From Phycisphaerales bacterium (GTDB lineage Bacteria > Planctomycetota > Phycisphaerae > Phycisphaerales > SM1A02): a stretch of DNA of 64,000 nucleotides. Made by a program: the position numbers and the translations under genes. The stretch is from assembly GCA_029260575.1 (NCBI GenBank), contig JAJDDB010000035.1, positions 1 to 64,000 of the forward strand. The letters run 5' to 3'. This document shows positions 3,695 through 63,949 of this stretch, piece by piece; the first letter of the stretch is position 1, and every line of letters starts with the position of its first letter. The notes below the pieces were generated by a model, which searched no databases, had not been told where the DNA came from, and saw nothing but the letters and a program-made list of their open reading frames with translations.

Positions 3695-6097
3695 CTAGCC
3701 GCTAATCTTTCGCACTCGCACGGCTGACTTCTTGTAGTCCGGCTGCTTGGAAAATGGATCGTGAGCATCCAGCGTGACGTCATTGATCAATACGGTTTCA
3801 TCGAAGAATGGCACGAAAACCGTGCCCCTTGGCGGACGCCCGCGCCCGTTGATCCATGCAGGCAATTCGATGCCGCCGCGTCTGGACTCAACCAAAACCA
3901 TGTCACCAGTCTTGATGCCCAGGGTCATTGCATCATCTGGATTGACCTCGACATAAGCACGCGGCATCGCTCGACTCAGCGGCCCAACGCGTCGAGTCAT
4001 TGTGCCGGAGTGCCAGTGTTCCAATACGCGCCCGGTTGTGAGCATGAATGGGAAGGATTCATCCGGCACCTCTGCAGGCGGTTGCCAGTCGTAAAACCAT
4101 ATCTGCGCGCGATCGTCATTGGTGGTTGAGTGATAGAACTGAATGTCGCGGCCATCCTCAACGTACGGATCATCGAAGCTGACAAATCGGAATTTTGTTT
4201 CACGCCAGGTTCCATCATCCTGCTGCACAACCGGCCAGCGCAACCCGCGCTCGCGCACATATTCTTCGTAGGGAGCAAGGTCTTTGTGTTTCAAACGTGT
4301 GAATTGCCGATATTCTTCAAACAGCGCCTTGTCGACGTTTACATCGTAATAGTGTTCCCACTCCCACGCTGGCACATCATTGCCGTTGTCATCTGCGACA
4401 TTAAAAATAAACTTGCCATCGCGATCGCGCATGCCGGAATGCCCGAGCTCCAGAAGACGATGCGCGACTGCGATCGTTTGCCAGCAATCATCACGAGCTG
4501 ATCCGGGTGGATCGACCATCTTGAACCATTGCTGGGTTCTGCGTTCACTGTTGCCGAAGATTCCGTTCTTTTCAACCCACAATGCCGCAGGCAAGATCAA
4601 ATCGGCGAGCTGCGTCGTGGCCGTTGGATATACCTCAGAGACAATCAGGAATTTCTCGGGCTGATTCTTCTTAGCGTTGAAAAGCTTGTTCAGATTCGGC
4701 AGCGTCTGCCCGGGATTCGTAACCTGCACCCACAGTGTGTCAATATCACCGCCGGCACTTGCAGGCGTGCAGAATTGCTCCCACATCTTCACCGTGTGAT
4801 AACCGGGTTGTGGGTTGATCCGTCCTTCAGGAACATTCCAGTATTGCTCCGCCTGTTTACGATGCTCAGCATTTGCGACAACACGGCCGCCGGGCAATGC
4901 ATGGGCGAGCGTGCCGACTTCGCGTACCGTGCCGCACGCCGACGGCTGGCCGGTCAGGCTTGTCGGTGCATCGCCAGGCTTTCCGAAATGCCCACTGAGC
5001 AGATGCACACCATGCACAAGACAGTTGATCGCCGTACCCGCAGTGTGCTGATTCATACCCATGCACCACAGGCTGGTGATGCGTACATCGCGTCGTCCAA
5101 ACAGATCCGCAAGCATCCGTATCTTGTCAGCTGGTACGCCGGAACAATCTTCGACGTACTCCGGTGTATATTTCTCCATGCGTTTTCGATACTCATCGAA
5201 CGAGATCGCTTCACCGAAGAGGTTCGGCGTGTCACCCTGCGCCCGGAAGTTGCAATATTGTTCAACGAACTGCTTGTCGTATGTGTCGTTCTTCAAGAGC
5301 AGATGGGCGATACCGTTGGCAATCGCAAGATCGCCGTGGCCTTTCATTTCGAGATAATGCTGACAATGTTCCGTCGTGCGTGTGCGCCGCGTGGAAATGT
5401 CAATGAGCGTGATCTCATCGCCACGTGAACGACGATCTATGACTCGCGAAAAGAGAACCGGATGCATCTCCGCTGGATTGTTTCCCCACATGATGAGTAC
5501 ATCACAATTGTCAAGATCTGCGTAACAACCTGCAGGTTCATCAACGCCGTAGGTTGCCAAGAATCCCGTCACCGCCGAAGCCATGCACAGGCGCGCATTC
5601 GGATCGATGTGATTATTCCCAAGCCCGCCCTTCATGAATTTCTGCGCAGCGAAGCCTTCGGGGATGGTCCATTGTCCCGAACCGTAAAATGCAAATCGCT
5701 CAGGTGCGTTCATAATGCGCTGCGCAACCGTGTCAATTGCCTGTTCCCATGAGATAGGGACGTATTCATTGCCTTGGCGCAGCAGCGGAGTTGTCAGTCG
5801 ATCCTGGCCGTAGAGAATCATGCCGACGTGATACCCCTTGACACAGAGCAGACCTTTGTTGACATCCGCACGTTGATCGCCGGCTATAGCAACGACCTTT
5901 CCATCCTCCACACCGACCTGCACGTGGCAACCTGTGCCACAGAATCGGCACGGAGCTTTGTGCCACTGCACACTGCTGGCCGCGTCGTTGTTCAACACAG
6001 GAAGACCAAATGCGCGTTCGCCAGCTATGGCTGCGGTGGCGCTGGCCAAAGCTGCGGTTTTCAGGAACGTGCGTCGATCGGTTGTTGCAGTACTCAT
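3695..6097 (-). CDS. napA: periplasmic nitrate reductase catalytic subunit NapA
   Basis: An 800-residue molybdopterin oxidoreductase that reduces nitrate to nitrite. A Tat signal is present (DRRTFLKTAAL near residue 8). The 4Fe-4S ligands are C50, C53, C57 and C85 in a CxxCxxxC...C arrangement. C169, in ARLCMASAV, is the expected molybdenum ligand. Later blocks typical of NapA include MWGNNPAEMHPV, MGMNQHTAGTAINCLVHG and the C-terminal HWHSGTMTRR. The length fits the family. Its ATG overlaps the stop of napD by four bases (ATGA), and napB follows. Confidence 0.95.
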   Translation of the reverse strand: MSTATTDRRTFLKTAALASATAAIAGERAFGLPVLNNDAASSVQWHKAPCRFCGTGCHVQVGVEDGKVVAIAGDQRADVNKGLLCVKGYHVGMILYGQDRLTTPLLRQGNEYVPISWEQAIDTVAQRIMNAPERFAFYGSGQWTIPEGFAAQKFMKGGLGNNHIDPNARLCMASAVTGFLATYGVDEPAGCYADLDNCDVLIMWGNNPAEMHPVLFSRVIDRRSRGDEITLIDISTRRTRTTEHCQHYLEMKGHGDLAIANGIAHLLLKNDTYDKQFVEQYCNFRAQGDTPNLFGEAISFDEYRKRMEKYTPEYVEDCSGVPADKIRMLADLFGRRDVRITSLWCMGMNQHTAGTAINCLVHGVHLLSGHFGKPGDAPTSLTGQPSACGTVREVGTLAHALPGGRVVANAEHRKQAEQYWNVPEGRINPQPGYHTVKMWEQFCTPASAGGDIDTLWVQVTNPGQTLPNLNKLFNAKKNQPEKFLIVSEVYPTATTQLADLILPAALWVEKNGIFGNSERRTQQWFKMVDPPGSARDDCWQTIAVAHRLLELGHSGMRDRDGKFIFNVADDNGNDVPAWEWEHYYDVNVDKALFEEYRQFTRLKHKDLAPYEEYVRERGLRWPVVQQDDGTWRETKFRFVSFDDPYVEDGRDIQFYHSTTNDDRAQIWFYDWQPPAEVPDESFPFMLTTGRVLEHWHSGTMTRRVGPLSRAMPRAYVEVNPDDAMTLGIKTGDMVLVESRRGGIELPAWINGRGRPPRGTVFVPFFDETVLINDVTLDAHDPFSKQPDYKKSAVRVRKISG

Positions 6098-52564: not shown

Positions 52565-55500
52565 ATGAAGCGCGCACCAACAACCCGTCGACCCGTTTTG
52601 CTCGGTCTGCTGACCGTGATACTGTCAGCACTTGCGCTGTGTGCGCTGCCAACGATCGCCCAAAACGACACGAACCCGCCGCAGACGGACCCGCCGGCTC
52701 AACCAGCCGAACAGACCGGCGACGAGACCCCGGCCGACCTTGAAGGCCCGCCCGTTCCGCCGGAACGCGTCGGCCCTTCCAGTGATTCACTGCCCAGCCT
52801 TGATGAACTGGACAAACGGATCGCAATTTTCGAGCAGGCCGAATCGCGCACAGATCAACAGAATATTGAGCTGCAGAATCTGAAATCTGCGCGCAGCTAT
52901 CTCGAGCTTGCTCAACAATCGTCAGCGCGATCCGCATCGCTTCAGCAGGACGCAGCCAGCGCGCCCCAGCGCCTGCAGACGGTGCAGGCCGACCGCGCTA
53001 AGGCTGCAGAGACCGCAATTCCGCCGGAGCTTGCCGCAGCAGCACTTGAAGAACTCGAAACGCGTCTGCAAGCTGCTCGTACTGATCTCGACACAGAAAA
53101 ACGATTGCAGAACGTCGTTGAATCCGAAGCGACGACCCGCGTTGAACGCAGAAACAACGGCATTCCAAACGAATTAGCTGCTGCTCGCAATCGTCTGGAA
53201 GCTATCAATGATGCGCTTGATGATGCGCCGCCGCCGGACATGCCGCCAGCTATTGTCGCCGCCCGAAGATTGGCCCTGCAGGCTGAACGTCTCGAACGCA
53301 CCACTCGTGTCACAGAACTCGAAAATGAACTCCGCAGTTACGACGCACGCAAGGATCTTCTCACCGCCCGCCGTGAACTTGCCAGCCTGCGACTGCAAAA
53401 TGCTGATCGTCTGGTCAACCGGCTCGAACAACTCGTTACCGATAAGCGTGCTGCAGCAGCCGAGCAGGCCCGCCAACAAGCAGAACAGGCCGCCCGCGCA
53501 GCCCGTGATCAACACCCTGTTCTGCAGAAAATCGCCGAACAGAATTCCGAACTTGCCTCAGAGCTGGTCGAGGTCACAGAACGCAACCGCTCGCAGACCG
53601 ATCGCAGGCAACAACTCGAAGCGGAGCTCGCCAAACAACTTGCTGATTACGACAAGCAGCGACAATTAGTCAAACGCGTTGGCCTGGATGAGGTATTCGG
53701 TTTACGTCTTCGCAATATTCGATCGCAGCTTCCGGACATTCGGCCGCAGATGCGCGCCATGGCCGAGCGCAGCAAGGAAATCAGCCGCGTTGTCCTTCGT
53801 CTCGATGCGCTCAGCGATCAGCAATCGATGCAGCTTGATCTTCAGCAGGAAGCTCGTGATCGGTTGCAGGCTGCGGAAGTGCAGACTGACAGTCCGCTGT
53901 ATGACGCACTGCTGGCTCGGACACAAGAGGCGCTTGCGGCGCAGAACAACAAGTATCTCAAAACGCTCACCAGCGCGTTCGATGATTACCTCGAGAACAC
54001 GTTGTTCGTCCTACAGGAACAACAGCGACGCCTTGTTGAACAGACTGAGCAGTACAACAACTTTATCAGCGAGCGCATTCTCTGGATTCAGAGCACGCGC
54101 CCCATTGCCGGCGAAGACTTCAGCGAAACGTGGAATGCAATTCGCTGGTTGGCAAGTGCAGACAATTGGGCTCCGCTGTTGGCAGGGCTGTGGCGCGACG
54201 CCTTGGCTAATCTTGTCCCGTTGATCGCAATCCTGCTGATCATCACACTATTGCTCGCGCTACGCCGGCGCATGGCTAAGGCACTTATTGACCTTGGCGA
54301 CAACGCACGCAGTGTATTCAAAGCCAAATTCAGCCACACAATGACTGCCATCGCACTCACGATGCTCATCAGTCTCCCTTGGCCGCTGCTGCTGCTGGTC
54401 ATCGGCTGGCGATTGAATCATGTCGCAGAAACTGTCGCTTTCGCCGGCGCGATCTCACCGGCGGTACTCAAACTCGTCGCGCCACTGTTTGTCATCCTGT
54501 TCCTCTGGCATCTACTGCGCCGAAACGGTGTCGCTTCGGCGCACTTTCGCTGGCAGCCGGCCAATCTGCGTTTGACTCGAAAAGTCTTACGCACAGTCGC
54601 GCCCGTTGCGCTGCCTTTGCTGTTTGTCGTCACCGCAGTCGAGAATCAGCCGGACGGTACATTGTCTGATTCGCTCGGCCGCTTTGCGTTTCTTGGTCTG
54701 ATGGTGTTGATGTCCATCAGCTTCGGCTGGCTGCTCAGTCCCAACCGTGGCGTGCTTCGCAACATCGTTGCCAACACTCCCAACGGCTGGTTGGCCCGCC
54801 TGCGGATGATCTGGTTCCCGATTTTGGTGCTCATTCCGATTGCGCTCGCGGTGGTGGCGGCACTGGGATACTTCTACACCGCACAGCAGCTACATGGACG
54901 CATGATCTTTATGGCACGGCTCATCATCGTCGTGCTCATCGTCTATGCATTGCTGCAGCGCTGGTTGCATCTCGTGCAGCGGCGCGTTGCCATTGCTGAA
55001 TCGGCGCGCAAAGCCGAAGCCAAGACAGGCGCAGCCGGCGAGGGCGCTCTGGAATCCGGTGGGCCGATCGAACCAGTGACGCTCGATGTGGTCGCGCTAT
55101 CAGCCCAGACCGTCAAGCTCCTGCGTACTGTCGTCTATGCCAGCATTCTCATCGGCACGCTTGTAATCTGGTCCGATGTTGTTCCTGCGTTCAACATGCT
55201 GCGGGAGGTAACGCTGTGGAGCGAAACTGGTAACACCGTCCTGACAGATTCGTCGACCGAATCTTCAGGCGTCGGATCGATTCTCAATGGCACAACCAAC
55301 GGCGGCGAAAGCGACTCGGGCGCAAACACTGCTGCTGTGCAAGAAAGTTCGTCTGAACAAACCCAGGCCGAACCCGCGCGCGTCACGCTTGCCGACCTCG
55401 TCTACGCGCTGTTCATACTCGTCATCACGATCATAATCGCCCGAGATGTGCCCGGCTTGCTTGAATTTGTCGTTCTGCAGCGCCTGCCGATTACCTACGG

Positions 55501-56248
55501 TGCGCGCTATGCGATTTCAACAATCACGCGCTACGCCATTGTCATCATCGGCGTCGTTGCATCCTTCAACGCCATCGGCATCGGGTGGTCCAAAGTTCAG
55601 TTCCTGGCTGCGGCGATCACCGTCGGCCTCGGCTTCGGCCTCCAGGAAATCTTTGCCAACTTCGTCTCCGGCCTGATCATTCTCTTTGAACGACCCATTC
55701 GCGTCGGCGACACTGTCACCGTTGGCGAAGTCAACGGCACCGTCTCTCGAATTCGCATGCGCGCAACGACAATCACCGATTGGGATCGCAAGGAACTGAT
55801 CATTCCCAACAAGGAATTCGTCACCGGCCAGATCATCAACTGGACGCTGACTGACTCTGTCATGCGCTTGCGCATCGCTGTCGGCATTGCCTATGGTTCG
55901 GACACCGCAGCAGCCCGACGAATTCTTTATGAAGTGGCAGAAAAAGATCCATACGTGCTCAGCGATCCCGAGCCGCGCGTGTTGTTTCTCGACTTCGGTG
56001 ACAATTCGTTGAATTTCGAGTTACGCGTGTTCATCTCAAGCATTGAATTCTTCATGGTCACTCGCGATTCGATGCACGAAGCGATCGACAAGGCGTTCCG
56101 CAGCGCGGGCATATCGATCGCATTCCCCCAACGGGATCTGCACATTGTCAGTTACCCGCCGGAGCTTGCTGCGAAGCCGGTGGACGCTGCGCTCAGCCCT
56201 GCCAAACAACCAAGCGCAGCGTCCGACTCGAACGGCAAGAAGGAATAA
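52565..56248 (+). CDS. large MscK-type mechanosensitive channel
   Basis: A 1227-residue protein. A signal peptide (to about 33) precedes about 450 residues of Gln/Glu/Arg-rich coiled-coil periplasmic domain. About ten hydrophobic helices follow (from about 540), then an MscS core: pore helix AAAITVGLGFGLQEIFANFVSGLIILFERPIRVGD, then the beta domain VGEVNGTVSRIRMRATTITDWDRKELIIPN. The C-terminal vestibule ends with PPELAAKP. The layout is that of MscK/KefA: a channel that opens under membrane tension to relieve osmotic stress. Confidence 0.92.
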   Translation: MKRAPTTRRPVLLGLLTVILSALALCALPTIAQNDTNPPQTDPPAQPAEQTGDETPADLEGPPVPPERVGPSSDSLPSLDELDKRIAIFEQAESRTDQQNIELQNLKSARSYLELAQQSSARSASLQQDAASAPQRLQTVQADRAKAAETAIPPELAAAALEELETRLQAARTDLDTEKRLQNVVESEATTRVERRNNGIPNELAAARNRLEAINDALDDAPPPDMPPAIVAARRLALQAERLERTTRVTELENELRSYDARKDLLTARRELASLRLQNADRLVNRLEQLVTDKRAAAAEQARQQAEQAARAARDQHPVLQKIAEQNSELASELVEVTERNRSQTDRRQQLEAELAKQLADYDKQRQLVKRVGLDEVFGLRLRNIRSQLPDIRPQMRAMAERSKEISRVVLRLDALSDQQSMQLDLQQEARDRLQAAEVQTDSPLYDALLARTQEALAAQNNKYLKTLTSAFDDYLENTLFVLQEQQRRLVEQTEQYNNFISERILWIQSTRPIAGEDFSETWNAIRWLASADNWAPLLAGLWRDALANLVPLIAILLIITLLLALRRRMAKALIDLGDNARSVFKAKFSHTMTAIALTMLISLPWPLLLLVIGWRLNHVAETVAFAGAISPAVLKLVAPLFVILFLWHLLRRNGVASAHFRWQPANLRLTRKVLRTVAPVALPLLFVVTAVENQPDGTLSDSLGRFAFLGLMVLMSISFGWLLSPNRGVLRNIVANTPNGWLARLRMIWFPILVLIPIALAVVAALGYFYTAQQLHGRMIFMARLIIVVLIVYALLQRWLHLVQRRVAIAESARKAEAKTGAAGEGALESGGPIEPVTLDVVALSAQTVKLLRTVVYASILIGTLVIWSDVVPAFNMLREVTLWSETGNTVLTDSSTESSGVGSILNGTTNGGESDSGANTAAVQESSSEQTQAEPARVTLADLVYALFILVITIIIARDVPGLLEFVVLQRLPITYGARYAISTITRYAIVIIGVVASFNAIGIGWSKVQFLAAAITVGLGFGLQEIFANFVSGLIILFERPIRVGDTVTVGEVNGTVSRIRMRATTITDWDRKELIIPNKEFVTGQIINWTLTDSVMRLRIAVGIAYGSDTAAARRILYEVAEKDPYVLSDPEPRVLFLDFGDNSLNFELRVFISSIEFFMVTRDSMHEAIDKAFRSAGISIAFPQRDLHIVSYPPELAAKPVDAALSPAKQPSAASDSNGKKE

Positions 56249-56251
56249 CAA

Positions 56252-56980
56252 TCAACCGCGTCGCCGGTGCCGCCGTGCACCTATCAACAGCGCAAACATT
56301 GGCGCGAGTGCTCCAGGTGCAGGTACTGTCGCGCCCGGCTGTGATGGTGGATCAGTAAACGAAAAGACCGGATCGAAACTGAATCCATCCCAACTCCCGC
56401 TGGCCAGCACACGATCAGAAACACCCGTCAGTGCGCTGTCCCACGCGCCGCCGTCGAATGGTTCATTCTCGCTGGTCCAGTACGTCCAGAATCCGCTGCT
56501 GAACCACCCTTCCGCGTAATGATCATCGCTATCCAGCGATACCGCGCCATCAGCGTTGGCGCTTGTCGTGACCGCAATGCCATCGACACCGAAACTGGTT
56601 GCATCGTCCAGACCGAAACCATCGCTGTCCAGATCGTATCCGAAGCCGAACGTCGAAATCCCGAATGCGCCCGGCGCGCTGATCTTGGCGTACAGATTTG
56701 CATCCGCCTCTACGACCGCCCGCAACATGTCTTCTCCCGTTGCCGCTCCGTCCCAGCGATACCCCCAGACAAGTGATTGTGGCTCGATGCCATCGTTCCA
56801 ATCCAGCACAAGCGCTGCGTGGTTGGAACCGTTGCCGATCCAGGTGTCGATGTCATCAAACGTGAATGCTGCGCTGGCTGTCTGAACACACATTGCGACT
56901 GCACCGAGTGCCACATACCGCGACACATTCAGTGCGCGTTCTTTCTTCTGCCCTCTGTCATCTGTCTTCTGTCCAGTCAT
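56252..56980 (-). CDS. B12-riboswitch-controlled secreted PEP-CTERM-like protein
   Basis: A 242-residue secreted protein. A signal peptide (to about 40, ending ASAAFTF) precedes a domain with IDTWIGNGSNHAALVLDW, SLVWGYRWDGAATGEDML and FWTYWTSENEPFDGGAWDSA. The C-terminus, TVPAPGALAPMFALLIGARRHRRRG, is a PEP-CTERM-like sorting tail. AGGAGG lies six bases before this ATG. A cobalamin riboswitch lies about 145 bases upstream, so expression should rise when B12 is scarce. The protein may capture cobalamin or serve its uptake. This is inferred from the riboswitch; the fold itself was not recognised. Confidence 0.75.
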   Translation of the reverse strand: MTGQKTDDRGQKKERALNVSRYVALGAVAMCVQTASAAFTFDDIDTWIGNGSNHAALVLDWNDGIEPQSLVWGYRWDGAATGEDMLRAVVEADANLYAKISAPGAFGISTFGFGYDLDSDGFGLDDATSFGVDGIAVTTSANADGAVSLDSDDHYAEGWFSSGFWTYWTSENEPFDGGAWDSALTGVSDRVLASGSWDGFSFDPVFSFTDPPSQPGATVPAPGALAPMFALLIGARRHRRRG

Positions 56981-57124
56981 GACTGCCTCCTGCTCCGATC
57001 GCGCGGAGCCGACCCCAAAACGCACGAATACCGGTCCGCAGGCTCAGGGCGGTTCCGGTGCGTGACTGTCCGGGGTCGCAAGACAGTGCAGCCGGGCGTC
57101 CGTTGCGCGAGGACACGACGAATG

Positions 57125-57345
57125 CAACAGGCAGGTCTTCCGGCTGTGGGCAGAGCCTTCGATCGTCTTCCCGCCGAATGCGATTCATTCAGCAGTGACA
57201 TGTGATCAAACGCTGCGAACCGATTGGTTCACGTGCCCTTCACGGCGGCGCGTCCGCGTGGGAATTGTGTTCAAAGCAATCTTGCATGCTTCAATCACGC
57301 ACCCACTTCCCTTTTCATCTGCCTCAGGCAGACACCTCTTGCAAA
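57125..57345 (-). promoter_or_regulatory. cobalamin riboswitch
   Basis: Read on the minus strand, the region starts with AGGTGTCTGCC, then GATGAAAAGGGAA and GTGGGTGCG, the 5' core of the cobalamin aptamer. It later has GTCACTGC, and ends with the B12 box AGCCGGAAGACCTGCC (57130-57145). These elements occur in the canonical order, about 200 bases apart. The riboswitch lies upstream of the secreted-protein gene at 56252-56980. I see no clear terminator hairpin before the gene, so control of translation is more likely than early termination. Confidence 0.9.
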
Positions 57346-59516: not shown

Positions 59517-59861
59517 TTACCGGTGCCCGCCACCATGACCACCGTGGCCACCGCCATGTCCGCCGTGGCCGCCGCCATGACCACCACCATGTCCGCTATG
59601 ACCGCCGCCATGTCCACCATGACCACCGCCATGTCCACCGTGGCCACCACCATGTCCGCCGTGACCCCTATAACCGTAGTGCTTACCGTAAGAGCCGTGG
59701 TAGTACGACCGGGAGTTGTAGTTGTTGTGGTGATACCCACGACCGTACGAGCCGTAGTGACCAACTTTGTAGTAGCTGCCGCCGCAGCCGCCGAGCAGCA
59801 TGAGAGCCGCCGCCGCAAGGCCAAGACCACTGAACAATCGAATTCGCTTGGACATCATCAT
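59517..59861 (-). CDS. small lipoprotein with His/Gly heptad repeats
   Basis: A 114-residue lipoprotein: signal and lipobox LLGGC (Cys26), then a Tyr/Gly/His linker (about 30-66), then a low-complexity tail of HGGHGGG repeats to the last residue. The repeats carry a histidine at every third or fourth position (about 14 in 47 residues), so the tail should bind metal ions such as Ni, Cu or Zn. GGAG precedes the ATG triplet run by five bases. Opposite-strand frames are shadows of the repeat. Neighbours do not show which metal. Confidence 0.75.
   Translation of the reverse strand: MMMSKRIRLFSGLGLAAAALMLLGGCGGSYYKVGHYGSYGRGYHHNNYNSRSYYHGSYGKHYGYRGHGGHGGGHGGHGGGHGGHGGGHSGHGGGHGGGHGGHGGGHGGHGGGHR
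59523..59663 (-). repeat. 21-bp tandem repeat encoding HGGHGGG
   Basis: About six full units and one 12-base partial unit encode His-Gly-Gly-His-Gly-Gly-Gly at the end of the lipoprotein. One unit has Ser in place of Gly. Such in-frame 21-bp repeats can change copy number by slippage or recombination without a frameshift. Confidence 0.85.
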
Positions 59862-61223: not shown

Positions 61224-61633
61224 CAGATTACCTCATCACCGAAGTCTCAAAATCCGTTTTTCAGCGCGCGCCACAGCAGCGCCGCCGATCGTGACGAGGA
61301 CACAAACAGCAACTGCCCATTCCCCGTAGCTGAGTGCATTTCGCGAAATACGAAATGCCCGCTGCATAGCTGTCATTCACATCACTCGCGCGCAAGTTGT
61401 TGCAAACAATCTGATTAGGGCAACTTCGTCAAGAGGTTTCACCCCGTACACGAATAGAACCCTGCTCTGGCAACAACTCGAAAGTACCAAAGCAAAAGCC
61501 CGGGCTGCACTTCCATTTCAGTGATCAAAGACGCCTCGTGGCTGCGAATTTGTGATTTCAGAACATTGTCAGATGCTCCATATGTACGATGCATGTGTAC
61601 GAATCGCGTACAGAGGAATGCTTTGGGGTGGGT
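61224..61633. other. gene-poor gap between the lipoprotein and the kinase
   Basis: About 410 bases between two divergent genes, so both promoters should be here. The only frame of note is a 46-residue single-helix ORF at 61236-61376. The rest has no hairpin with a T-run and no other long frame. Near 61395-61420 there is an AT-rich segment (TTGTTGCAAACAATCTGATTA) that could hold a promoter element, but it is not a clear sigma-70 match. Confidence 0.4.
61236..61376 (-). CDS. possible 46-residue single-helix membrane protein
   Basis: A short frame reading MTAMQRAFRISRNALSYGE, then one hydrophobic helix (WAVAVCVLVTIGGAAVARA) and a basic end. It lies 12 bases upstream of the lipoprotein gene and could be its leader or partner. 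No Shine-Dalgarno sequence is visible before either Met, so it may be chance. Confidence 0.3.
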   Translation of the reverse strand: MTAMQRAFRISRNALSYGEWAVAVCVLVTIGGAAVARAEKRILRLR

Positions 61634-63949
61634 ATGGTCGACGAGCAACACACTGAGACACACGAGGACGAGACGTGGCCGGGCCAGACCGCGCCTGCGG
61701 ATCATCAGCAGGATCGCGAAACATCGATCAAGCAAATCGGACCGTTTGAGATTATTCGTGCGCTCGGTAGCGGCGGAATGGGCACCGTCTACGAAGCAGT
61801 TCGCGAACAACCAAGACAAACCGTTGCGATCAAACTTCTCAAATACGGCATCGGCTCTGACCTGCAACGCCAGCGCTTCGATCGCGAATGTGAATTTCTC
61901 GCAGCGCTTCATCATTCGAATATCGCTCAACTCTATGACGTGGGGATTCATGACGCTGACGGTGAATCTGTGCCGTACTTTGTTATGGAATTCATCGAAT
62001 CAAGCAGGGCAATTACACGCTATGCATTCGAAGAGAAGCTGCCGATTCGCGATCGGGTCAACCTGTTTTGCGATGTGTGTGATGCGATCCAGCACGGCCA
62101 TGAAAAGGGAATTCTGCACCGTGACCTGAAGCCGGACAATCTGCTAGTGAATGCGGAAGGTCAGGTCAAAGTCATTGATTTCGGCGTTGCTCGCGCGCTG
62201 ACTGACGATCTCGGCGGCCCGCAACACACCAGCACCGGTCAGATCGTCGGCACGATTTATTACATGAGTCCGGAACAAGTCGATGCGGATTCTTCGCACC
62301 TCGATGCACGCAGCGATGTGTATTCACTCGGCGTCGTGCTGTATGAACTGCTGACCGGCCGGCTCCCGTACACGTTCAAGGGAACGTCGATCGTCTCCGC
62401 TGCGCGCGTTATTCGAGACGCTGCTGTGACGCGCCCTTCCAAACACGTGCATGCGCTGAAAGGTGATCTGGATTCGATTCTGCTCAAGGCTCTTTCAAAA
62501 CGGCGTGACAATCGATACGCAACCGTCGCGGACCTCATGGCTGACCTGCGCCGCTATCTCAACAGTGAACCGCTGCTGACCCGCAGAACCGCATCGCTGT
62601 ATCTCGTGCGGCATTCCGCAGATCGATTCATGTTGCGGCACCCGATTTCCGCTGCTTTGGTGACCCTCATGCTGGCGGGTCTTCTCGCAGAATTCCTCGG
62701 TGTGCCGCTGATCTATAACTGGACAGGCGCGCACAAGCAGTACGTCAAACAGCTTAGCGCGTTGATTCCGATCGAAACAACCAGTGCAAGTTTCGATCAC
62801 GTGCGCATAGTGCGCCTTGACGATGCGTCGGTTGCAAACGCAGCAGAGCGTGCACGCCAACTTGACGCGCCGGAGGTGCGCCCGGATGAAGACTGGTACA
62901 GCATGCGCGTGCTGCACGGACGATTCATGCAACGACTTGCAGCAGCAGGCGTGCGCGTCCTTGCGTGGGATATCAACTTTGTTGATCCATATTCCTATGA
63001 CGCAGAGCTTGTAGCCGGCGTCAAAGCGATGCACGAAGCTGGCTCGCCGGTGGTCATTGCTGTGCCGACGTGGGTGCATGATGCAGAAGGCTATCCGCAG
63101 ATCACGCGCGTTCTTGTTCCGCATGTCCGCTGGGGCTGCACAAGTGCCTGGTTTGATGATGCAGCGCCATGGGAAATCGAACTTGCGATCTATCGTCAGA
63201 CCGGCCAAACCATTGCGTCACTCGGGCTGAATACTGCATCTGCATGGTGGCATCCCGACTGGAAGCCGGCATATGTCTTTGATCCAAACGAAGACAGCGT
63301 CCTTCGAATCGATTTCTACCGGTCGCTGCAGGACAACCCGTCCGTGCGTGTGCCGCTTGGTCAGGCTCGTCGCATCACACTGACTTCGAATTGGATCGCT
63401 GACACAGCTGATGCAGACTTCGGAATCTTCGAAGATGACTTCATCGGATACTTCGGATTTCCCATCCCCAGTGATGCTGTGCTGGATGCATCGAGTGTTT
63501 CCTACGATTGGGTGTTTCAGGCAACCGACAACGAATTGCGTGATACATTGCGTGGCAAGGCAGTCTTTGTTGGTGATTTTCGATCCGAAGCGGGTGATCA
63601 CTATCCTCTCTCTGACGGTCGAGACCTGCACGGTTGTTACGGCCATGCTGCGGCAGTTGAGGCAATGCTGCAGGGCAGTGTGATTCTCGATGAGCGCACA
63701 TCGCTTTCCCGGATCGGCATAGTCGTGTTCGCGCTGTTTGGTCTGCTGATCGGATGGTCCTGCGCCAACCGGCCCGTCGTGCGCTTCGTGATTCTGTCGG
63801 TGCTCGCAGTGCTGCTGGCACTGGCTGCAGTTACAAGCTATCGCAATTTTCAATACATCATGAATCCGTTTGTTCCGTTCCTGGGTGCCGTACTTGCATG
63901 CGAGATCGGCGCTCGGATTACCAGGCTCCGACGGAGCTATTTTGCCTAA
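61634..63949 (+). CDS. CHASE2-containing Ser/Thr protein kinase
   Basis: A 771-residue kinase. A short acidic leader precedes the catalytic domain (about 30-300): GSGGMGTVYEA, VAIKLLK, HRDLKPDNLL and KVIDFG are intact, with GTIYYMSPEQ in the activation segment, so it should be active. One helix at about 330 leads into a CHASE2 sensor domain (FDHVRIVRLDDASVANA, VRVLAWDINFVDPYSYD), followed by three helices at the C-terminus. It probably phosphorylates cytoplasmic proteins in response to an extracytoplasmic signal. A start at 61589 is possible; 61634 is preferred, with a weak GGGGTGGG upstream. Confidence 0.88.
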   Translation: MVDEQHTETHEDETWPGQTAPADHQQDRETSIKQIGPFEIIRALGSGGMGTVYEAVREQPRQTVAIKLLKYGIGSDLQRQRFDRECEFLAALHHSNIAQLYDVGIHDADGESVPYFVMEFIESSRAITRYAFEEKLPIRDRVNLFCDVCDAIQHGHEKGILHRDLKPDNLLVNAEGQVKVIDFGVARALTDDLGGPQHTSTGQIVGTIYYMSPEQVDADSSHLDARSDVYSLGVVLYELLTGRLPYTFKGTSIVSAARVIRDAAVTRPSKHVHALKGDLDSILLKALSKRRDNRYATVADLMADLRRYLNSEPLLTRRTASLYLVRHSADRFMLRHPISAALVTLMLAGLLAEFLGVPLIYNWTGAHKQYVKQLSALIPIETTSASFDHVRIVRLDDASVANAAERARQLDAPEVRPDEDWYSMRVLHGRFMQRLAAAGVRVLAWDINFVDPYSYDAELVAGVKAMHEAGSPVVIAVPTWVHDAEGYPQITRVLVPHVRWGCTSAWFDDAAPWEIELAIYRQTGQTIASLGLNTASAWWHPDWKPAYVFDPNEDSVLRIDFYRSLQDNPSVRVPLGQARRITLTSNWIADTADADFGIFEDDFIGYFGFPIPSDAVLDASSVSYDWVFQATDNELRDTLRGKAVFVGDFRSEAGDHYPLSDGRDLHGCYGHAAAVEAMLQGSVILDERTSLSRIGIVVFALFGLLIGWSCANRPVVRFVILSVLAVLLALAAVTSYRNFQYIMNPFVPFLGAVLACEIGARITRLRRSYFA

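Follow-up and report, generated by a model that had tools for sequence, protein, structure and literature searches.

The question raised by this locus is what a cobalamin riboswitch controls when the gene behind it encodes an exported protein with a sorting tail. The window, meaning the whole 64-kb stretch of DNA that was analysed (64,000 nt), carries a complete cobalamin riboswitch aptamer (RF00174) on its minus strand at positions 57354-57113, matched by cmscan at 78.6 bits (E 1.1e-17, model positions 1-189) against a gathering threshold of 31.5 bits; this was the sole match in the window when all Rfam families were searched. The B12-box core of the aptamer, AGCCGGAAGACCTGCC, lies at 57145-57130 (-) and was found once in 64 kb by pattern search versus 0.05 matches from shuffles. 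A preliminary description of this DNA had claimed a minus-strand riboswitch core containing this box, and the covariance-model match bears it out. Two details need correction: the aptamer reaches to 57354, a little past 57345, and the gene that follows starts at an ATG at 56980 rather than at a GTG at 57025. That gene, termed P1, occupies 56980-56252 (-) including the stop codon, encodes a 242-residue exported protein of a conserved family, and is monocistronic. Its neighbour, encoding a large mechanosensitive channel of the MscK/MscM type (52565-56248, +), is convergent, and the riboswitch therefore serves P1 alone. The 132-nt leader between aptamer and start codon (57112-56981, -) is a candidate expression platform. 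A search between aptamer and gene found no terminator-like site, and the predicted fold of the leader (minimum free energy -70.4 kcal/mol, not significant at z -1.25) pairs the AUG region and the Shine-Dalgarno sequence AGGAGG (56991-56986, -), 5 nt 5' of the ATG, suggesting translational control by this pairing. The host genome, a 4.1-Mb draft that is 95% complete, contains only two cobalamin riboswitches, of which this is one.

The P1 protein begins with a signal-peptide-like N-terminus (approximately residues 1-38; 56980-56867, -) that ends in ASA-A/F, includes a helix at residues 9-30 in the AlphaFold model, and aligns with the shorter, typical signal peptides of homologues. A predicted beta-grasp domain resembling the beta domain of transcobalamin follows (approximately residues 47-203; 56842-56372, -), as indicated by an AlphaFold core with pLDDT of at least 90, Foldseek, and hhalign. 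The C-terminal tail, VPAPGALAPMFALLIGARRHRRRG (56326-56255, -), combines VPAP, a variant of the VPEP-type motif, with a hydrophobic helix (modelled at residues 222-241) and a basic end, RRHRRR. The earlier recognition of an exported protein with a sorting tail is thus upheld. Its PEP-CTERM-like label holds as a resemblance of the tail, and the PEP-CTERM family PF07589 matches eight of 20 P1 homologues, but P1 of the window itself matches no PEP-CTERM model in Pfam or NCBIfam. More generally, no fitting Pfam or NCBIfam family was found for P1, and single-sequence searches of Pfam, NCBIfam, and the PDB gave nothing usable. A match to LPD26 (E 0.09) was rejected as noise, and an antibody, the sole PDB match of an HMM built from 20 members, was set aside as chance. 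In the window subtype of P1, an Asp-rich stretch of some 50 residues is also inserted between strands. Elsewhere in the window, a short lipoprotein-like ORF at 59517-59861 (-) has a long Gly-His-rich repeat tail (GGHGGHGGGHGG...) that is possibly metal binding, and a gene at 61589-63949 (+) appears to encode a Ser/Thr protein kinase joined to a sensor region that is membrane-bound and CHASE2-like.

The association of P1 with cobalamin riboswitches is conserved across the family. A total of 20 P1 members were retained from 61 genomes (60 relatives and the host) once three tail-only or unrelated matches had been discarded, and a riboswitch lies upstream of 19 of them. RF00174 scored above threshold just upstream of eight members, the shorter RF01482 type scored just below its own threshold at nine (E 4e-6 to 0.09), and two had weak matches (L019, E 0.16; L017, E 1.3), while a search upstream of the remaining member (L023) found none. 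A class-wide search of 298 genomes returned P1 matches in 145, many of them weak or tail-only. Among the 30 best-scoring of these, 20 further loci were drawn, and all 20 have a same-strand upstream riboswitch (14 above threshold, and six of the RF01482 type, with E-values no higher than 0.59). The preliminary description had proposed looking for riboswitches in front of homologues, and in planctomycetes this arrangement recurs, on the same strand, in 39 of the 40 members checked, although the scores are no more than marginal for three of the 39. At two loci (L089 and L091) the riboswitch lies about 1 kb from the P1 gene.

A scan of named genomes, queried with five close P1 rows rather than the diverse 20-row alignment, extended this large family from Planctomycetota to Verrucomicrobiota, Kiritimatiellota, Armatimonadota, Sumerlaeota, Marinimicrobia, Bacteroidota, and Desulfobacterota (Desulfosarcina and Desulfobulbus). 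An above-threshold cobalamin riboswitch is present on the gene strand at 13 of 20 P1 loci from other phyla, among them loci of the six phyla listed here from Verrucomicrobiota to Bacteroidota, and six of the seven loci without one belong to Bacteroidota. In Desulfosarcina cetonica (L123) the riboswitch lies 3' of the matched gene and 5' of a second P1-like gene. This locus (L123:2896-6473) and that of Desulfobulbus elongatus (L162) contain P1-like and BtuH-like genes in arrays, their products bearing tails of the VPxPxAxWLLGSGL type, and in the former a c-di-GMP-I riboswitch (4404-4488) lies directly 5' of the cobalamin riboswitch (4579-4820). In Bacteroides salyersiae (L158:2836-6585), the P1-type protein behind a cobalamin riboswitch also has Ig domains and a long run of leucine-rich repeats of the BspA type.

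Cobalamin riboswitches above the cut-off occur at least once in 54 of the 61 genomes. At the 31 loci that were read, most of the genes behind the riboswitch encode secreted proteins whose tails are PEP-CTERM-like or dockerin-like and which belong to the P1 family, to a second family termed P2, or to a propeller-like group; one encodes a BtuB-type TonB receptor. Surface proteins under riboswitch control are the rule in Phycisphaerales, not an oddity. The propeller-like secreted proteins, most with such tails, follow cobalamin riboswitches in several other Phycisphaerales (L031, L033, L041, L046, L055, and L057); they may be planctomycete counterparts of BtuG, and the two that were tested gave weak Pfam propeller matches at most.

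Gene order in other phyla ties P1 to B12 uptake. In Empedobacter (L138), the end of a btuB gene (best match BtuB1, 2e-19) is followed by btuG (5e-43 to solved BtuG structures), by btuH (matching BtuG1, a protein with a BtuH domain, at 7e-69 and BtuH2 at 6e-44), and, as fourth gene, by one whose product joins the P1 domain to a DUF5074 propeller (matched at E 6e-129) and has a T9SS (type IX) sorting tail. Loci in Chryseobacterium, Flavobacterium, and Porphyromonadaceae look the same, and in Verrucomicrobiota and Marinimicrobia a single riboswitch precedes P1, a P2-like protein, and a pseudopilin. These gene orders indicate that the P1 domain travels with known B12-uptake genes and, in Bacteroidota, forms one protein with a propeller like those of the BtuG-like neighbours.

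The second cobalamin riboswitch of the host genome heads an operon on another contig (C27 199398-201531; L003:9399-11532) that encodes P2, a secreted, BtuH-like protein with a dockerin-like tail, and a pseudopilin (N_methyl and DUF1559 domains) whose gene overlaps that of P2 by 4 nt. A structural model of P2 (pLDDT 87.5) had one PDB match below E 0.001, chain 8blw_B (3.6e-6), which is BtuG1 of the BtuB1-BtuG1 complex and carries a BtuH domain (PMC10404256). A profile comparison aligned the core motif of P2 with that of Bacteroidota BtuH proteins (E 1.5e-4). Given these comparisons and those made for P1, both of these riboswitch-controlled secreted proteins point to cobalamin. The pseudopilin, one of only four DUF1559 matches in the host genome (L003:10726-11532), belongs to a subfamily found in cobalamin-riboswitch operons of several phyla (L106:4873-5688, L107:5541-6350, L113:5126-5875, L114:5134-5883, L127:5312-6034, L128:2139-2894, and L135:2738-3412), with 31-40% identity to the host member and a typical C-terminal TGFLSADNSxYDLE.

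Similarity of P1 to transcobalamin was set down as a hypothesis ahead of structure prediction. The AlphaFold model, made from the 20-row alignment, has a pLDDT of 78.7 and a pTM of 0.71; in 79 of its residues the pLDDT is at least 90. When it was compared with the PDB by Foldseek, the top 19 matches were all transcobalamin, intrinsic factor, haptocorrin, or DUF4430 domains (E 0.014 to 0.8, probability mostly above 0.9, target-domain TM-score 0.62-0.68), led by the DUF4430 structure 3u7z (E 0.014, TM-score 0.68) and including the human transcobalamin beta domain 5no0 at 0.62. At the sequence level, hhalign aligned a profile of 40 P1 domains end to end with one of ten DUF4430/transcobalamin domains at E 3e-4 (2e-5 in the reverse direction), at probabilities of 20-77% that vary with alignment and direction. 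Real scores were 28-34 versus at most 22 for column shuffles, one outlier shuffle per control run aside; these outliers scored 130-133, and inspection of one showed an end artefact of 5 columns. An alignment of 130 P1 domains scored 26-30 and was no sharper, for which reason the sequence evidence for a transcobalamin link is weak and the link mainly fold-based. The DUF4430 family (PF14478) scored above the Pfam cut-off in none of the 20 P1 members and nowhere in the 61 genomes. A transcobalamin-type beta-grasp fold is thus predicted for P1 by modelling, and remote homology to DUF4430/transcobalamin domains is likely, if unproven by sequence.

The host itself appears to need the vitamin. Its genome encodes four above-threshold B12-binding domains and a BtuF-BtuC-BtuD-like operon. 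BtuB was not found, a search for TonB-receptor plug domains returned zero, and no enzyme of the cobyric-acid-synthase/cobyrinate-amidase type scored above cut-off; these absences come from single-family searches of a 95%-complete draft, and each therefore carries some risk. On the simplest reading, the host is a B12-dependent scavenger whose outer-membrane B12 receptor is not recognisable.

Taken together, P1 is probably a riboswitch-controlled cobalamin-capture protein, held at the surface by its PEP-CTERM-like tail and built on a transcobalamin-type beta-grasp domain; a role as a cell-surface B12 catcher is favoured because the predicted fold resembles the vitamin-binding half of transcobalamin. 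The capture role assigned in the preliminary description is supported in substance by the btuB-btuG-btuH context and the predicted fold, from which we infer binding itself. When cobalamin is scarce, the aptamer would be unoccupied and P1 expressed; when it is plentiful, the occupied aptamer would shut P1 off, probably by way of a hidden ribosome-binding site. After export, the tail would keep P1 at the cell surface or outer membrane, where its single beta-grasp domain, as a divergent relative of the transcobalamin/intrinsic factor beta domain and DUF4430, could bind cobalamin or related corrinoids extracellularly and, alone or with the BtuH-like P2, hand them on towards BtuFCD. It is conceivable, if doubtful, that planctomycetes lacking TonB receptors use a novel outer-membrane B12 route in which surface-anchored P1 and P2 capture the vitamin and the co-regulated type-II/IV pseudopilin assists in presenting it or in carrying it through the outer layers to BtuFCD.

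Other explanations have to be weighed against capture of cobalamin by P1. There are many PEP-CTERM proteins, most of them with no known function, and planctomycete genomes are often fragmented assemblies, so that a genuine riboswitch might have come to lie before P1 by an accident of assembly or rearrangement, with the surface function of P1 unrelated to it. The probability of this is negligible: the same-strand upstream riboswitch is kept by all but one of the 40 homologues, even where identity falls to about 25%, and in complete genomes such as ZRK34 (L108/G056), and chance placement is refuted for practical purposes. A further candidate is that P1 is induced by B12 starvation and sits at the surface as a non-binder, for instance with a structural or docking role in arranging other B12 binders or in promoting the release of vesicles, a role of the sort proposed for BtuL of Bacteroides thetaiotaomicron. 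Operon membership alone is no proof of binding, because BtuL and BtuK2, both from B12 riboswitch operons of Bacteroides, were negative when tested for cobalamin binding (PMC12751083), and the propeller fusions of Bacteroidota would also allow P1 to be an accessory module. Such a role is nevertheless unlikely, since in planctomycetes P1 has a riboswitch to itself and no companion gene behind it, and the clade of its predicted fold binds B12 directly in animals, with B12 scavenging proposed in bacteria (PMC1796856).

The ligand might also differ from the one assumed here. Cobalamin riboswitches also govern cobalt and corrinoid uptake genes, and the Asp-rich insertion of the window subtype could hold a metal, so that P1 might capture cobinamide, a specific cobamide, or Co2+ for cofactor assembly. 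This is distinctly improbable: a host in which no cobyric-acid-synthase-type enzyme scored above cut-off could do little with cobalt by itself, and the BtuG and BtuH neighbours in Bacteroidota bind whole cobamides. The RNA switch, the operon partners, and the predicted fold form three largely independent lines that tie an undescribed, multi-phylum family of surface proteins to B12, and PEP-CTERM proteins, mostly without an assigned role, gain a testable ligand. If binding holds, free-living Gram-negative-type bacteria display single-domain proteins related to the B12 carrier of humans, and the question arises of how B12 crosses the outer membrane of a lineage in which no TonB receptor was found.

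The transcobalamin-like beta-grasp (SLBB) clade was defined by Burroughs et al. (2007), who listed planctomycetes among its holders and proposed B12 scavenging for its secreted bacterial members in organisms unable to make the vitamin (PMC1796856). Like the transcobalamin/intrinsic factor beta domain and DUF4430, P1 is secreted and has a (predicted) beta-grasp topology, and it has in common with them the pattern ...G-x-D-L...FG-x-x-x-x-G-I...YW-x-Y...G-x-S-x-R-x-L-x-D-G-S...W-x-F. It differs in its PEP-CTERM-like or T9SS anchoring, in its Gram-negative-type cells, in its cobalamin riboswitches, and, in the window subtype, in the insertion of about 50 residues. In animal transcobalamin an alpha/alpha toroid completes the B12 site, whereas the P1 family has no toroid. 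The start of the NCBIfam model NF040672 (SCO2322, an actinobacterial exported protein) also matches the C-terminal YWHYW...DGSWDGWVF motif in 12 of 20 P1 members, over only about 50 residues and far below its 85-bit cut-off (best E 4e-4). In Gram-positive bacteria, DUF4430 genes adjoin nrdJ, cobalamin adenosyltransferase, or ECF genes.

Bacteroides already provides examples of surface B12 binders under riboswitch control, namely BtuG (PMC6143338), BtuH (PMC8941943), and BtuJ and BtuK (PMC12751083), and DUF4465 proteins bind B12 broadly (PMC13398666). The preliminary description's new class of cobalamin-acquisition protein is therefore new as a family, as it appears, but not as a kind of binder. 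No Pfam or PDB sequence match places P1 in the BtuG (DUF5074/YncE), BtuH, or BtuJ (DUF4465) families, and its predicted fold differs from the BtuG propeller, the BtuJ jelly roll, and BtuH in a comparison that covered these three proteins. P1 is no lipoprotein, unlike the Bacteroides binders, and has no BtuB partner found in its genome. What appears to be new is the P1 family itself, together with the way it is anchored and the TonB-less setting, and a search of the open-licence literature returned no relevant paper on cobalamin riboswitches with PEP-CTERM proteins or Planctomycetes. The two systems meet in Bacteroidota, where P1 homologues sit in BtuG/BtuH operons, fused to a DUF5074 propeller, and the BtuG-like neighbours match that same Pfam family. 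Like the lipoproteins BtuG, BtuH, BtuJ (DUF4465), and BtuK, P1 combines cobalamin-riboswitch control with export, the latter by sequence and model, to the surface or beyond, and its proposed role is likewise that of an accessory to uptake.
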